Below are positions 27,734 to 33,885 of a stretch of 64,000 nt of DNA, piece by piece. The notes beneath the pieces were generated by a model. That model had not been told where the DNA came from. It saw nothing but the letters and a program-made list of their open reading frames with translations, and did no database searches. This DNA is from Halostella limicola (GTDB taxonomy: Archaea; Halobacteriota; Halobacteria; Halobacteriales; Natronoarchaeaceae). The stretch lies in NCBI RefSeq assembly GCF_003675875.1, contig NZ_RCDI01000001.1, positions 744,001 through 808,000 on the forward strand, read 5' to 3'. The first letter of the stretch is position 1. Each line of letters starts with the position of its first letter. A program made the position numbers and the translations under genes.

Positions 27734-28954
27734 ATGGACAGTCCACACGTGCTCGTGATCGGCGGCGGGGGCACCGGCGTCGGGACCGCGCGCGACCTCG
27801 CGATGCGCGGCGTCGACGTGACGCTGGTCGACCGCGGCGGCCTCGGGAGCGGGACCACCGGCCGGTCCCACGGCCTCCTCCACAGCGGCGCGCGCTACGC
27901 GGAGAACGACCCGAGCGGGGCCAGCGAGTGCATCCAGGAGAACCGCATCCTCCGCGACGTCGCCGGGCACTGCATCGGCGGCGACTGCGGTTACTTCGTG
28001 CAACTGGCGGACGACGACCCCGAGTACTTCGACGAGAAGCTCGCCGCCTGCCGCGACCTGAACGTCCCCGCCGAGGTGCTCACGCCCGAGGAGGCCCGGG
28101 AATCAGTCCCGGACCTGGCCGACGACGCGGAGCGTGTCATGGAGGTCCCGGACGGCGTGATCTACCCATCCCGACTCGTCGCGGCCACGGCGGCGAGCGC
28201 CCGCGAGCACGGCGCGACGATCCGGCCGAACGCGCCGGTACGGGGGCTGCTGGTCGAGGACGACGCCGTCGTCGGCGCGCGCGTCGAGACGGGCGACGGC
28301 GTCGAGGCGGTCCGCGCGGATCACGTCGTCAACGCCGCCGGCGCGTGGGCCGGGGAGATCGCGGACACGGCCGCGATCGACGTGGAGATGCGCCCGGCGA
28401 AGGGCGCGATGGTCGCCGTCGACTATCCGGGCCTCCCGGCGGTGCTGAACCGCTGTCGCCCGCCGGCGGACGGCGACATCGTGGTCCCGCACGAGGGCGA
28501 GGCCGTCCTCGGCACGACGAGCGTCGACGTGGACGACCCCGACGAGTTCGACGAGGAGCGCTGGGAGGTGGAGCGCTGTATCGAGGAGTGCGCCCGGATG
28601 CTCCCGCCGGTCGCCGACGCCGCGGTGACCCGGACGTACTGGAGCGTCCGCCCGCTGTACGGTCCGGACGAGGACGAACGCCCCGGCGGACGCGGCATCT
28701 CGCGGGGCTTTTTCGTCCTCGACCACGCCGAGCGCGACGGCGTTACGGGCTTCACGACCGTCGTCGGCGGGAAGCTCACCACCCATCGGCTCATGGCCGA
28801 GGCGACCGCCGACCGCGTCTGCGACCGCCTCGGCGTCGACGGGGCGTGTCGCACCGCGGACGAACCGCTGTTCGGCGCTCGACCCGACGAGAACCTGGAC
28901 GCGGCCATCCGCGAGTTCGACGCCGCGTCGCCGGCGGACGCCGACGCGCTCTAG
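27734..28954 (+). CDS. FAD-dependent oxidoreductase, glycerol-3-phosphate dehydrogenase (GlpA)-like, lacking the C-terminal [2Fe-2S] domain
   Basis: A 406-residue DAO-superfamily flavoprotein. The FAD fold shows VLVIGGGGTGVGTARDLAMRGVDVTLVDRG at the N-terminus, then GTTGRSHGLLHSGARYA, a typical GlpA stretch, NAAGAWAGEIAD and a C-terminal GFTTVVGGKLTTHRLMAE. GlpA oxidises glycerol-3-phosphate and usually carries a C-terminal BFD-like [2Fe-2S] domain; this protein ends just after the FAD domain. No glpB, glpC or glpK is nearby. It may act on glycerol-3-phosphate or another hydroxy acid with a different electron acceptor. It overlaps the convergent regulator gene by 4 bp. Confidence 0.75.
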   Translation: MDSPHVLVIGGGGTGVGTARDLAMRGVDVTLVDRGGLGSGTTGRSHGLLHSGARYAENDPSGASECIQENRILRDVAGHCIGGDCGYFVQLADDDPEYFDEKLAACRDLNVPAEVLTPEEARESVPDLADDAERVMEVPDGVIYPSRLVAATAASAREHGATIRPNAPVRGLLVEDDAVVGARVETGDGVEAVRADHVVNAAGAWAGEIADTAAIDVEMRPAKGAMVAVDYPGLPAVLNRCRPPADGDIVVPHEGEAVLGTTSVDVDDPDEFDEERWEVERCIEECARMLPPVADAAVTRTYWSVRPLYGPDEDERPGGRGISRGFFVLDHAERDGVTGFTTVVGGKLTTHRLMAEATADRVCDRLGVDGACRTADEPLFGARPDENLDAAIREFDAASPADADAL

Positions 28955-30603
28955 TCCTCGAACAGCGCCTCGAACACCTTCCGCTCGGCCGTCCGGAGGT
29001 GTTGACCGAACGTCGCGGGGGCGATCCCCAGGCGCTCCGATATCTCCTCGCCGGTGCTCGTGCGGGGCCACTCGAAGTAGCCCGCCCGGAACGCCGTCTC
29101 GAGCGCGGTCTGCTGTTTCTCCGTCAGCCGGCTCTCGATTGGCGACTGCTGTCCGAGGAACTGCCCCTCCTCGTGCTCCGCCGTCCGCTGGGCGACGAAC
29201 TCGGCGCTCGGACACGACTCCTGGACCTCGGTCACGAGCTTGCGCGTGTCCCGTCCCCGCGGCAACTCGACCACGAGGCGGAACTCGCCGTCGTCTATGG
29301 TCGCCGACTGCACGCGGCCGCTGTGGGTCACGACCGTCTCTATCAGGGGGACCGGTTCCGCCGTGACCGCCTCGAACGCCCGCTCCTCCGGTCCCTCCTC
29401 GACGACGCGGCCGCGGTCTATCACGTCGACCTCCGCGACGACGTCCTCGAACTCCTCGGCGGCCAGCCCCCGAACGCTCCCGTACAGGAGGTGGGCCTCG
29501 TCGTCGGTCCGGATGAACCGGTCGATGCGCACCGCACAGCTCTCGTCCGCCGTCCGTTCGACGATCGGGCGAGCCACGCCGTTGAGGCGGAACTCCAGTT
29601 CGAGGACGGCATCGCTCACCAGCGCGTTCTTGCGTTCGATGGCGCTGATGGCGTGGCCGACGATGTCGCCGAGGCGGGCGAACGTCTCCCGCTGCGGCTC
29701 GGAGAACGCCTCTGGCGTCGACGCGTACACGTTCAGGACGCCGTACCGGAGGTCGTCGTGGACGATCGGGACCGCGAGCGAGGAACGGTAGCCCCGCTCC
29801 AGCGCAGCCTCGCGCCACGGTTCGAACTCCGGATCGGCGGCGATGTCCTGCACCGCCTGCAGTCGGTCGGACTCGATCGCGGTCGCGGTCGGGCCCTGTC
29901 CCGTCTCGCTGTCGTCGACGGATATCTCGACCGCGTCGAGGTACCCCTCGTTGACGCCGGCCTCGGTCTCGGCCACGACGCGGTTGCTCCCCTGCGCGAC
30001 GCGGCCGATCCAGGCGAACACGTAGTCCTCGGAGTCGACGAGCCGCTCGCAGACGCGCCGTTCGAGGCTCTCCCTGGACGAGGCGTTGATGACGATGTGG
30101 GTGACGTCCTGGCTGATCCGGTTCAGCCGGTGGAGCGCCTCCAGTTCCTCGCGGTGGCGCTTGCGCTCTATCTCCTTCGACTTGCGCTCGATCGCGTAGT
30201 GCAGCGACCGGACGAGCGACGAACTCGTCACCTCGTCTTTCACCAGGTAGTCCTGTGCGCCCTCCTCGATCGCCTGCACCCCGGCCTGTCGGTCGTCGAA
30301 GCCGGTGAGGACGACGATCGGCGTCTCCGGGGCCGCCTCCACCGTCGCCGACACCGTCTCCAGCCCCGAGCTGTCGGGCAGGTTGAGGTCCAGCAGCACC
30401 ACGTCGACGCGGTGTTCCTCGAAGTACGAGAGCCCGTCAGACAGCCGCTTCTCGTGGTGGAGCCTGGGGATCTGGTCGGCCGTGGAGTCGGGGTCGACGC
30501 GGCGGGGGAGTTCCTCCGCGTCGCGGAGCATCTCCCGGATCAGCCTCGCGTCGCCGGGGTTGTCCTCGATCAGTAACGCCGTGAAGTCGCTTTCGTCGGT
30601 CAT
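28951..30603 (-). CDS. Response regulator with GAF and bat-type HTH output domain
   Basis: A 550-residue three-part protein. Residues 8-125 are a receiver domain: acidic pair E13-D14, phosphoacceptor D72 in VVLLDLNLP, T100 and K122. Residues about 155-320 are a GAF sensor domain. Then follows the bacterio-opsin-activator GAF-HTH module, ending in the HTH_10 domain (LTEKQQTALETAFRAGYFEWPR, ISERLGIAPATFGQHLRTAERKVFEALF). It should turn a phosphorelay and a small-molecule or redox signal into transcription. Its ATG overlaps the upstream single-domain receiver gene by 4 bp, so both are made together. No histidine kinase is in the window. Confidence 0.88.
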   Translation of the reverse strand: MTDESDFTALLIEDNPGDARLIREMLRDAEELPRRVDPDSTADQIPRLHHEKRLSDGLSYFEEHRVDVVLLDLNLPDSSGLETVSATVEAAPETPIVVLTGFDDRQAGVQAIEEGAQDYLVKDEVTSSSLVRSLHYAIERKSKEIERKRHREELEALHRLNRISQDVTHIVINASSRESLERRVCERLVDSEDYVFAWIGRVAQGSNRVVAETEAGVNEGYLDAVEISVDDSETGQGPTATAIESDRLQAVQDIAADPEFEPWREAALERGYRSSLAVPIVHDDLRYGVLNVYASTPEAFSEPQRETFARLGDIVGHAISAIERKNALVSDAVLELEFRLNGVARPIVERTADESCAVRIDRFIRTDDEAHLLYGSVRGLAAEEFEDVVAEVDVIDRGRVVEEGPEERAFEAVTAEPVPLIETVVTHSGRVQSATIDDGEFRLVVELPRGRDTRKLVTEVQESCPSAEFVAQRTAEHEEGQFLGQQSPIESRLTEKQQTALETAFRAGYFEWPRTSTGEEISERLGIAPATFGQHLRTAERKVFEALFED

Positions 30604-31061
30604 TCGTTATCGCCTCCGGGGAGGTGAACGACGGAGAGCCAGAACCGCTCGAACGAGCGGATCTTCTCGATGAACTCGTCGGGGTCGATCGGCTTGCGGA
30701 GGTAGGCGTTCGCGTGGAGCCGGTACGACCTGACGATGTCCTCTTCGGCCTTCGAACTGGTCAGCACGATTATGGGGATATCCCTGAGATCGGGGTCGCC
30801 TTTCACCGTTTCGAGCACCTCGTCGCCGTTCTTGCGCGGGAGGTTGAGGTCCAGCAGCACGATGTCCGGTCGCGGGGCATCCTCGTACTGCCCGCGCTGG
30901 TAGAGGAAATCGAGCGCTTCGGTGCCGTCGTTCACCACGTGGACCGCGTTTTTGATCTGCTCTTCCTCGAACGCTTCCTTCGTGAGACGGACGTCGCCGG
31001 GGTTGTCCTCGACTAACAGGATGTCCACCGGTTCGACCTCGGTCCCCCCAACGTTACTCAT
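30600..31061 (-). CDS. Single-domain response regulator
   Basis: A 153-residue CheY/Rcp1-like receiver: acidic pair E18-D19 in ILLVEDNPGDVRL, phosphoacceptor D71 in IVLLDLNLPRKNG, then VLTSSKAEEDI and YLRKPIDPDEF. It has no output domain. The length and the RKNGDEVL motif resemble Rcp1-type regulators paired with hybrid or phytochrome-like kinases. Start at the ATG at 31061 (an in-frame start at 31070 is possible). It is the first gene of a two-gene operon with the bat-type regulator and may act as a shuttle or competitor for the same kinase. Confidence 0.88.
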   Translation of the reverse strand: MSNVGGTEVEPVDILLVEDNPGDVRLTKEAFEEEQIKNAVHVVNDGTEALDFLYQRGQYEDAPRPDIVLLDLNLPRKNGDEVLETVKGDPDLRDIPIIVLTSSKAEEDIVRSYRLHANAYLRKPIDPDEFIEKIRSFERFWLSVVHLPGGDNE

Positions 31062-31555
31062 TCGTCTCACCTACGTCGCGGAGGGTGGAATAGCACGTCG
31101 ATCCGCACTCGGGGTCATCGTCGCGGACGTCGCTCGTGTTCCCGTGTCTCTCATCCCGGACCGACCGGCGTTTCCGCCGGCTCAACAGACCGCTTCCTCG
31201 CCCGGACCGTGACCGTTCGATGCACCGTTTCACTCGTTCGGCGACTCTCACCGTCCCTTCGGTCGTTGCCCGGGCCGCGGCGGCGTCCGCCGAAACCGCG
31301 TCGGAAGCCGCTGTTGCCGAGGCTCGCCCATCGGGTTCGTCCGTGATTCTCCGACGCCCCGCCCGACCCCGTAACGCCGCTTCCGCGTCTACCGCGGTAG
31401 CCATGATATAATTGATACAGGAGACGAGCTATATCGGGGTAAAACTATCGAAGAAATACTGAAAAGTAACGGATCGGTACGTGTATCGGGCGACGCGGGC
31501 CGGTCGCCGCCGCGCCGCCGGACGCGATTCCGGCCGGCCGGTGCGCTGCCCCGCG
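31062..31555. other. Gene-poor stretch between the response-regulator operon and the low-complexity gene
   Basis: About 490 bp. A minus-strand frame (31054-31404, 116 codons) starts beside an AT-rich, TATA-bearing patch (31400-31445) but is Arg/Ala-rich, with weaker third-position bias than neighbours, so I do not call it a gene. The AT-rich patch may be the promoter of the response-regulator operon, leaving a leader of about 340 nt. Confidence 0.4.
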
Positions 31556-32626
31556 TTAGTAGCCCTGGTGCTGGCCGCCGCTTCCGCCTCGTCGCCGCTC
31601 GCTCCTGTGACCGCCCTGTTGGCTACCTCCGTGATCCCGACTCCGCTGGTTGCCGCCGCTCTGCTGACCCTGTTGCCCCTCTCCTTCCCAGCCTTCATTG
31701 TGGTGCGGCTGCTGGCCCTGCCGACCGCCCTGCTGGTAGTGCTGGCTGCTTCGCTGGTGGCTCTGTTGTTCGCCGCGCTGCTGACTACCTCCTTGACGCC
31801 TACCGCCGCCGTGCTGCTGGCGGCCCTGCTGTCCCTGCGACTGCCGACCGCCGGACTGGTGTCCGCCTCGCTGCTGGTGCTGTCCACCGCCCTGTTGGCC
31901 GCCTCGCTGGCGACCGGCGCGCCGCGGTGACTGCTGGCTGCCGAACTGCTGGCCGCCGCCGCGTTGGCTCTGTCCGCGCTGGCGGTCTCCTCGCTGGCCC
32001 TGCTGGCTCTGACCGCCCTGTCGGCCGCCTTGCCGTCCCTGCTGGCTATGGTCGCCGTGGTGGCCCCCGTGACCGCCGATGCCGCGGTGCTGACCCTGTT
32101 GGCCTCGTTGTCCCTGCTGACCTTGCTGTCCTCGCTGGCTTTGCTGTCCGCCGCGTCGCCGGTTGCCACCCTGCTGTTGTTGGCCGCCGCCCTGCTGGTG
32201 GCTGCGCTGTTGGCCGCCGCCTTGCTGACGCCCCTGTCGGCCGCCTTGTTGATGCCCCTGTCGGCCGCCGCCGTGCTGCTGGCGGCCCTGCTGCCCCTGC
32301 GACTGCCGGCCGCCGGACTGGCGACCGCCGCGCTGCTGGTGCTGTCCGCCGGAGTGGCCGCCGGTCTGCTGCGTTCGGCCCCCTTGCTGCTGGCCGCCCT
32401 GCCGGTGGCCTCCGTGTTGCTGTCCCTCGTGCTGCTGGAACCCGCCGTGATGCTCGCCCCGGATCTGGTCCTGTTGTTGTCCTTGCTGTCCTCGCTGTCG
32501 TCGGCCGCCCCGCTGTCCCTGCTCGCGACCACCTTGCTGTCCCTGATGTCCCTGATCCGCGTGGAACTCCCCCTGTCCGCCGCGCCGGTGCTGACGCTCG
32601 TGCTGGTCGTCGGTGTGTCGTGCCAT
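31556..32626 (-). CDS. Gln/Gly/Arg/His-rich low-complexity protein
   Basis: A 356-residue protein made almost only of Gln, Gly, Arg, His and Ser, with units like GGRQ, QQGQ, RGGQQ and GGHQ. Asp, Glu and large hydrophobics are nearly absent, so it is basic and disordered, opposite to the usual haloarchaeal proteome. No signal peptide. Two blocks (about residues 94-120 and 248-273) are near-identical copies. The other frames in this region are long only because the DNA repeats; I prefer this one because its ATG follows a TATA-like GTTAATC by about 30 nt. It resembles RGG/Q-rich RNA-binding or phase-separating segments. Function unknown. Confidence 0.55.
   Translation of the reverse strand: MARHTDDQHERQHRRGGQGEFHADQGHQGQQGGREQGQRGGRRQRGQQGQQQDQIRGEHHGGFQQHEGQQHGGHRQGGQQQGGRTQQTGGHSGGQHQQRGGRQSGGRQSQGQQGRQQHGGGRQGHQQGGRQGRQQGGGQQRSHQQGGGQQQQGGNRRRGGQQSQRGQQGQQGQRGQQGQHRGIGGHGGHHGDHSQQGRQGGRQGGQSQQGQRGDRQRGQSQRGGGQQFGSQQSPRRAGRQRGGQQGGGQHQQRGGHQSGGRQSQGQQGRQQHGGGRRQGGSQQRGEQQSHQRSSQHYQQGGRQGQQPHHNEGWEGEGQQGQQSGGNQRSRDHGGSQQGGHRSERRRGGSGGQHQGY
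31806..32347. repeat. 80-bp near-identical duplication within the low-complexity gene
   Basis: 31806-31885 and 32268-32347 align with few differences and are 462 bp apart, a multiple of three, so the frame is kept. This points to growth of the gene by internal duplication. Confidence 0.6.
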
Positions 32627-32823
32627 GACGGATCATCCCGACCACGGGAAGCGGGATTAACCGGGTCGGTCGTTTCCGCTGTTCCAGCGAAACGTATCGA
32701 CCTTGTAACACGGTAACGTCGCTGGTCCGCGGTTAACCCGACGCAAACGTCGCGGAGAACGGGAAATTCGTCGGCAAGCGCCGCGATCGCCCGCAGTGGA
32801 CGCCGGCGTACCGGCGGGAACGC

Positions 32824-33885
32824 TCAACCGTTCTGTTCTCCGAGGAGTTCGCGGACGAACGCCCGCCATCGCCGAGCCACGGCGTCGCGGTCGTCCTCCC
32901 GCGCGAACTCGGCCCAGTACTCGAACAGCCCCAGCCGCCAGGCGCGGGCGTAGAGGCGGTACCGTCGGTACCGGTCGCCGAACGCGACCCCGGAGTCGAG
33001 GCCGCGCGCCCCGACGTACGCGGACCGGAGGGCGTCACGGAGCGGCGCCGCGGCGGCGGTCCCGCCGAGCGGCATGTCCACCAGCGCGTCCTCGGCGTGG
33101 GCCAGATCGAGGAGTCCGTCCCCGGTCGAGCAGCCGCCGAAGTCGAGCACCGCCCGCACCAGCGGCGGGTCGTCGCCCTCGGGAGCGAGCACCAGGTTCG
33201 CCGGCCGGTAGTCGTTGTGCAGGACCGCGGGGTCGACCGCTCGATCGACGTCGCCGCTCATTAGCGCCTCGCGGACCGCGGGCGCGAGGTCGGCGAACCG
33301 CGGGTCCGGGTCCGCGATGCGCGCATCGCCGCGGAGGCCGTCGGCGGCCTCGGCCGCCATGTCGTCGAACCGTACCGCCCACGAGTCGCACCCGGGGTCG
33401 GTCGTCAAGCCGCCGTCGACGGCGCGCAGGTCGCCGAATCGGTCGGCGACGCGGACCCGGTGGATCGCGGCGAGGTGTCGCCCGGCCCTGTGGACGAGAC
33501 GCGTTCGCTCCGCGGCCGACAGCGCCAGCACCCCCTCGGCGGCGCGCCCCTCTCGATACCGTGTCAGGAAGTACGGCCCCGCCAGCGCCCCCGCGTTGCT
33601 CTCGACGGTCGCGAGCACCGTCGGGACGGGGACCGTCGTCTCGCGGCCGACACGCGCAAGCAACTCCGGTTCGGCGAGAAAGATGTCGTCGGACGGAAGC
33701 AGCGGCGTCTTCAGGGCCGCGCGACTTCCGTCCGCGCAGTCGACCCGGTAGACGGCGTTGACCCCCTCGTGGACGTGTGTCGCGCTCGTCACCGTCCGGT
33801 CGAGCGCCGTCGCCGCGGCCGCCGCTACCGCGTCCGGCGCGGGCGGTTCGAGGCGCTCGTCGCGAGCCACGCTAGTCGTTCGCAC
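32824..33885 (-). CDS. Phosphotransferase (APH / choline-kinase fold)
   Basis: A 353-residue kinase-like protein. It has an ATP-site Lys59 in RAALKTPL, the catalytic loop H223-N224-D225-Y-R-P-A-N230 (LHNDYRPANLV) and the metal-binding D248-F-G. The family usually has HGD in the loop; here Asn replaces Gly. Members phosphorylate small molecules such as aminoglycosides, choline, homoserine or sugars, and haloarchaea have several uncharacterised copies. The start codon lies where codon bias begins; a 5' repeat-rich spacer separates it from etfA. The C-terminal YRRYRLYARAWRLGLFEYW helix is usual for the fold. Substrate unknown. Confidence 0.8.
   Translation of the reverse strand: MRTTSVARDERLEPPAPDAVAAAAATALDRTVTSATHVHEGVNAVYRVDCADGSRAALKTPLLPSDDIFLAEPELLARVGRETTVPVPTVLATVESNAGALAGPYFLTRYREGRAAEGVLALSAAERTRLVHRAGRHLAAIHRVRVADRFGDLRAVDGGLTTDPGCDSWAVRFDDMAAEAADGLRGDARIADPDPRFADLAPAVREALMSGDVDRAVDPAVLHNDYRPANLVLAPEGDDPPLVRAVLDFGGCSTGDGLLDLAHAEDALVDMPLGGTAAAAPLRDALRSAYVGARGLDSGVAFGDRYRRYRLYARAWRLGLFEYWAEFAREDDRDAVARRWRAFVRELLGEQNG

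Follow-up and report, generated by a model that had tools for sequence, protein, structure and literature searches.

Disordered, positively charged proteins of low complexity have been discussed mainly in eukaryotes, where the usual comparison is given by the RGG/RG and Q-rich low-complexity domains of the FUS/hnRNP type. Several other described classes have to be considered as well: prion-like Q/N domains, which are rich in Q/N and poor in charge; hydrophilins, which are defined by a Gly content above 6% and high hydrophilicity and are usually Lys/Glu-rich; bacterial stress proteins carrying the KGG repeat (PF10685); and the four-helix copper storage proteins of the Csp1 type (TIGR04401). Basic proteins dominated by Gln, Gly, Arg and His (Q/G/R/H) are found repeatedly in haloarchaea. 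Charge should be screened nearly completely in the cytoplasm of these organisms, and if the proteins assemble or protect, they would provide a natural system that separates charge-driven contacts from Gln/Gly/Arg-driven ones. No description of this Q/G/R/H family was found in our searches of open-licence papers; low-complexity basic proteins as such are already known, and what is new here is their unusual setting together with a testable regulon. In the statements on these residues in a survey of low-complexity domains (PMC11132505), His/Gln-rich domains are eukaryote-specific and the occupancy of Q-rich domains is uniquely high in eukaryotes.

The gene analyzed here is located in a stretch of 64,000 nucleotides of the Halostella limicola genome (contig NZ_RCDI01000001.1, positions 744,001 to 808,000), which is called the window. 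The window genome is denoted G000, and the other four species of the genus examined are denoted G001-G004. The coordinates, strand and length originally assigned to the ORF are correct, and its main elements are as follows.

31556..32626, minus strand: gene of a Q/G/R/H-rich protein of 356 aa, with ATG at 32626 and TAA at 31556; intact syntenic orthologues in G001, G003 and G004
32561..32626, minus strand: N-terminal 22 codons MARHTDDQHERQHRRGGQGEFH, kept with G002 only; MAR is common to all five species
31559..31561, minus strand: codon of the C-terminal Tyr, which is the final residue in the four intact copies of the genus

The product is composed of Q110, G108, R50, H30, S21, E10 and D7, with three residues each of A, T, F and N, two each of I, P and Y, one each of M and W, and no K, L, V or C. 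Q, G, R and H account for 298 of the 356 residues (84%; Q 31%, Gly 30%, Arg 14%); the product is thus strongly dominated by these four, and the description as consisting only of them was too strong. It has 17 acidic residues, six F/Y/W aromatics, a calculated pI of 12.0, a GRAVY of -2.3 and a net charge of +33. Since nine neighbouring genes used as a reference set have on average 19% D+E and 2% Q, the claim of a basic product in an organism with an acidic proteome is borne out. The product is predicted to be disordered: AlphaFold2 run without an alignment gave a mean pLDDT of 44.6 and no secondary structure. Pfam and NCBIfam searches with the product gave no match, including none to an RNA- or nucleic-acid-binding domain; no Rfam family was found around the gene, and no signal peptide is evident by eye.

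Like the eukaryotic RGG/RG and Q-rich domains, the window protein is of low complexity, rich in R, G and Q, predicted to be disordered and strongly positive, but it is of low complexity throughout, has almost no aromatics and no folded RNA-binding domain, and belongs to a salt-in archaeal cytoplasm. RGG occurs eight times, compared with 4.5 ± 1.9 in 500 shuffles, and one, three and five times in the orthologues. The likeness to eukaryotic RGG/Q-rich domains that had been pointed out is one of composition: RGG is not clearly enriched beyond it, and neither the aromatic content (6/356) nor an RNA-binding domain is shared. Assignment to the prion-like Q/N domains was rejected because the 31% Q is accompanied by 14% R and a net charge of +33. 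With hydrophilins and LEA-like proteins the window protein shares high Gly, extreme hydrophilicity and predicted disorder; its Gly content of 30% lies well within the hydrophilin definition, and hydrophilicity was judged here by GRAVY, in place of the definition's own index. It differs from them in being basic, lysine-free and rich in Gln, Arg and His. The resemblance to the KGG repeat concerns a short repeated GG-containing module, GGxHSAxxQxRDExGQF, found in some haloarchaeal relatives, but the window protein itself lacks this module, and membership in PF10685 was discarded after neither the whole protein (E up to 5) nor eight short peptides (E up to 10), isolated copies of the module included, gave a Pfam match.

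In the genus, the gene order is etfB, etfA, the slot of the present gene, a DAO-type oxidoreductase and a polyprenyl synthase, and an intact Q/G/R/H ORF occupies the slot downstream of etfBA in four of the five species (356 aa in G000, 268 aa in G001, 195 aa in G003 and 318 aa in G004). All four intact copies start with MAR, end with Tyr, and have a pI of 12.0 and a net charge (R+K-D-E) of +28 to +37, while they are not alignable past the first residues. The window gene falls in this orthologue group by its slot between etfA and the DAO gene, the promoter box described below, its MAR start and its Tyr end. Comparison within the genus shows that the predicted slot product is held to its Q/G/R/H composition and place while its sequence and length drift. 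In G002, which is a MAG, the start region and the 5' leader are kept, whereas the Q/G/R/H frame is lost, the reading frame running into other sequence, and no Q-rich ORF follows etfA in the four species of two sister genera examined; the gene is therefore not essential. Frame breaks in close relatives, which had been named as grounds for refutation, thus occur in G002, while the frame is intact in G001, G003 and G004. An APH-like gene (window 32824-33885) and a response-regulator/bacterio-opsin-activator pair (28951-31070) flank the slot only in G000 and G002; in G001, G003 and G004, etfA and the DAO gene are the immediate neighbours of the slot.

A homologue search with the whole protein found G002 as the sole match besides G000 in 59 genomes, and gave no match in genome contigs and plasmids. 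Such proteins probably escape searches of this type because of bias and low-complexity filters, and therefore synteny and pattern searches were needed; these did recover relatives.

A promoter box with the consensus RAACGACYGNCSCGGTTRATCC is found 28-49 nt ahead of the ATG in all five species of the genus. The upstream elements in the window are as follows.

32654..32675, minus strand: promoter box AAACGACCGACCCGGTTAATCC, including a TATA-like TTAAT, at -49 to -28 from the ATG (upstream alignment, genome-wide matches and matrix tests)
32710..32716, minus strand: second conserved upstream patch TTACCGT, which is TTACCGT, ATACCGT or TTACTGT in the five species (upstream alignment)

The haloarchaeal basal promoter elements, as given in the description of these elements in PMC4983044, are a TATA element TTWT and a BRE CGAAA. 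The box resembles this arrangement in its TATA-like TTWAT, but has CCGG instead of CGAAA directly upstream of the TATA-like part and a fixed RAACGRY block further up. The upstream conservation shows that the gene has its own conserved, putative promoter. An upstream palindrome, CGTTTC-N12-GAAACG, was dropped as a candidate element because it is present in G000 and G002 only and is missing from G001, G003 and G004.

Whether the Q/G/R/H frame is the coding one has to be judged from such comparative evidence, since three of the six frames are stop-free across the whole ORF span in G000. This is because the product composition forbids stops on both strands, and therefore the open frame by itself proves nothing. 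An antisense L/A-rich frame and an S/A-rich +1 frame are both open over the whole span in G000, and the +1 frame is preferred by a codon-usage gene caller, which was trained on nine window genes and is biased against Q-rich genes. It is nevertheless extremely improbable that one of these is the coding frame: in each of the five species the box and the start codon stand on the minus strand immediately ahead of the Q/G/R/H frame, a recurrent peptide motif in the orthologues falls in this frame, and antisense openness is automatic because antisense stops need Leu TTA/CTA or Ser TCA codons, which are hardly used in the product. Another explanation is a near-neutral, repeat-driven CAG/GGC-rich tract that expands and contracts and is open by chance, and the following internal repeats bear on it.

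32265..32351, minus strand: copy of an 87-bp duplication nearer the start codon, 93% identical to the other copy (6 mismatches)
31803..31889, minus strand: copy of the 87-bp duplication nearer the stop codon, paired with 32265..32351
32216..32269, minus strand: 24-bp tandem repeat of about 2.2 copies

The 87-bp pair scores 69, whereas the best score among 30 codon-shuffled sequences was 20, and the pair is therefore not due to chance. The internal duplications originally reported are thus present as one clear 87-bp pair and one short 24-bp tandem, while growth by repeat gain is an interpretation. Third codon positions account for five of the six mismatches in the 87-bp pair (binomial about 0.02), giving modest support for coding; between the first 24 codons of G000 and G002 the mismatches are 2, 2 and 4 at codon positions 1, 2 and 3, with no clear third-position excess. 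The 87-bp duplication, the broken copy in G002, and product lengths ranging from 195 to 356 aa with sequences not alignable between species would all be expected of a neutral tract. Against it, the slot, composition, start codon context and promoter box have all been kept in the genus, neither G001 nor G003 shows a repeat comparable to the 87-bp pair at the threshold applied, and the composition has been kept with varied synonymous codons (GGC/GGA/GGT/GGG, CGA/CGC/CGG and CAG/CAA; GC at codon position 3 is 0.73 in the ORF), so that we consider a neutral tract very unlikely. The comparative evidence from slot, composition, start context and box makes it nearly certain that the ORF is a genuine protein-coding gene, in agreement with the original prediction.

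Genes sharing the box were collected by a pattern search across nine genomes of the family, followed by reading of the downstream genes. The box is also ahead of a gene for a Q/G-tailed four-helix (Csp1-like) protein in G000, G001 and G003 and of an HtrA-PDZ protease gene in G000; in G003, the Q/G/R/H gene and the Q/G-tailed Csp-like gene are the only two genome-wide matches (≤2 mismatches). A matrix trained on eight genus sites was applied to 23 Q/G-rich genes that had not been used for training, one of them from G000 and 22 from other genera. Nine of these scored 12 bits or more, whereas a single one of 182 neighbour genes did (p = 9e-7, Mann-Whitney test). When a TATA-like sequence was required in both groups and only the block upstream of it was scored, p was 2e-6 (14 vs 35 genes); these p values are somewhat inflated by within-genus relatives. 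An order-wide scan of 117 genomes gave 51 matches (≤1 mismatch) in 26 genomes, against two for the reversed pattern, and 15 of the 51 lie ahead of intact genes that are Q-rich (Q at least 0.18), in addition to the broken G002 copy. Among neighbour genes, none of 219 called had Q of at least 0.15, the caller being biased against Q-rich genes. The downstream reading took in 45 of the 51 matches, leaving out the five Q/G/R/H genes of the genus and G096 C1:1751875; four rows with identical boxes were read from a wrong locus (G000 C6:10118, G000 C6:150519, G096 C1:973745 and G082 C1:3579558), the gene downstream of G000 C6:10118 having been checked separately, and for the G033 downstream gene a wrong longer frame was taken.

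As other Q/G-rich genes of low complexity and an HtrA gene also have the box ahead of them, the present gene probably belongs to a shared regulon, and we regard its coregulation with other Q/G-rich genes as likely on the basis of these upstream sequences. The original prediction missed both this common box and the wider haloarchaeal set of Q/G-rich proteins. Further genes after the box encode secreted DUF7282 proteins, a Spondin_N protein and unknowns. Many box matches stand before genes that are not Q-rich, and the box is therefore not a Q/G-only signal; five group A genes of genus g19 have no box. The protease and surface proteins after the box suggest a stress or envelope response. The common box provides a handle on the timing and the regulator of the Q/G-rich proteins and makes a suspected stress or condensate role testable. 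The HtrA/DegP-type genes directly downstream of the box are at G000 C4:253022 (L119:2569-3681), in which a PDZ domain was found, and at G001 C4:321897 (L169:443-1624).

Searching more widely with a QQG-tract pattern uncovered basic Q/G/R/H proteins from several families of the order, some of them encoded at a position that is common to members of one genus or to closely related genera. The pattern matched 51 of 293 genomes, which is not a prevalence; the reversed control often matched too, and matches such as L045, L046 and L056 do not represent Q-rich proteins. Of the 30 QQG loci read, 14 encode a basic Q/G/R-rich protein with a pI of at least 9.4. The module GGxHSAxxQxRDExGQF is carried by a subset of the relatives: its DNA pattern (≤3 mismatches) occurs in 11 of 392 genomes and 8 of 95 genera, with no control match, and lies within a Q/G-rich protein at 11 of the 12 loci read, the regular expression having found nothing at L176. 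It is present in the syntenic copies of G001 and G004 (≤3 mismatches) and was not found in the G000 window protein with ≤3 mismatches; the latter shares the basic Q/G/R/H low-complexity body with the module-carrying proteins, and by eye GQGEFHADQ at its N terminus may be an eroded end of the module. When nine module loci outside the genus were scored for the box, one gave 9.7 bits and eight less than 1, and the lack of the box in most of these relatives argues against one universal regulon.

A final Tyr, Phe or Trp is found in 24 of 39 Q/G-rich proteins, which were hand-selected from several families with near relatives included, compared with 3 of 214 neighbour genes. Hydrophobic C termini are ligands of the PDZ domains in HtrA proteases. 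The boxed HtrA has a signal-like N terminus and the window protein none by eye, so that a direct link between the HtrA PDZ domain and this C terminus is speculative. A separate haloarchaeal family combines a four-helix domain, which bears a weak likeness to Csp1, with flanking Q/G-rich tails and is often under the box; its members include G000 C6:9326-10033 (L118:1827-2534, minus strand), L021-L024, L028-L030, L120, L121, L124, L155 and L159, and most of them end in Tyr, Phe or Trp. Box-carrying genes of this type match TIGR04401 weakly (E 2e-6 and 5e-6, far below the cut-off), and the G000 member gave no Csp1 match at E 0.01; the window protein differs in having no such domain.

As the window protein has neither a fold nor a fixed sequence, its function must rest on composition. 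We slightly favor a disordered protein that is regulated, acts through its composition and probably serves as a protectant under stress or as a scaffold for condensates; for the link of the product to stress we see an even chance, and its action as a shield or condensate is proposed tentatively. In this proposal, a fully disordered, lysine-free polycation would be made under stress (envelope, water or protein damage) and would act through its bulk composition. Through the side chains of Arg, Gln and Gly and through its backbone, the protein could contact acidic proteins and nucleic acids weakly at many points, and such contacts of Arg, Gln, Gly and His, being less salt-sensitive than plain charge pairs, might survive multi-molar KCl, by which the acidic proteome or nucleic acids would be shielded or gathered into a condensate. 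The recurrent C-terminal aromatic might be a recognition or sticker end, while the small number of aromatic stickers was counted against a condensate. The most extended form, a haloarchaeal Q/G-rich regulon with a non-canonical box in which lysine-free polycations condense or shield the acidic proteome, aromatic C termini are recognized and HtrA-PDZ acts in the same response, is unlikely to hold in full.

Protection could also be achieved in a hydrophilin-like manner, by a soluble protein that binds water and shields in desiccation or salt dilution without condensates. The Gly content, the GRAVY, the disordered model, HtrA in the same box set and the near absence of aromatic and hydrophobic residues to drive assembly are all consistent with this, but a strongly positive protein with 14% Arg and 31% Gln does not resemble the usual hydrophilins, which are rich in Lys/Glu, and we consider this mode of protection rather unlikely. 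The net charge, with 50 Arg and no Lys in G000, would fit an Arg-rich, tail-like coat on RNA or DNA, analogous to a histone tail or RGG; since RGG is not clearly above the shuffled expectation, Pfam and NCBIfam give no nucleic-acid-binding domain, and multi-molar KCl weakens charge contacts, such a coat is improbable. A granule- or surface-coating protein is more doubtful still: the box does precede secreted DUF7282 genes and genes for Q-rich helical proteins in G004 (C1:1323160, L170) and G015 (C40:80250, L146), with Q of 0.26 and 0.28, which by eye we take to be phasin-like, but at a threshold of E 0.01 neither Pfam nor NCBIfam gives a phasin match for the G004 and G015 genes, and no signal peptide is seen by eye in the window protein.

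Several minor observations were made in G000. Two identical box matches, at C6:4932-4953 and C6:150519-150540, each lie close to one end of a contig of 153 kb, and neither is followed by a clear gene; a terminal repeat is possible. A Q/G-rich N-terminal region is fused to a CBS domain pair in the C3:936490 region (L063:402-1664, minus strand), as well as at G008 C3:222447 (L057), and a weak version of the box (9.6 bits) is ahead of the G000 fusion gene. A second basic Q/G/R-rich protein, of 277 aa, is encoded from C6:12924 onward (L167:475-1305, plus strand), with the box 28 nt before its ATG; some 2.8 kb separate this box from the one ahead of the Q/G-tailed Csp-like gene.
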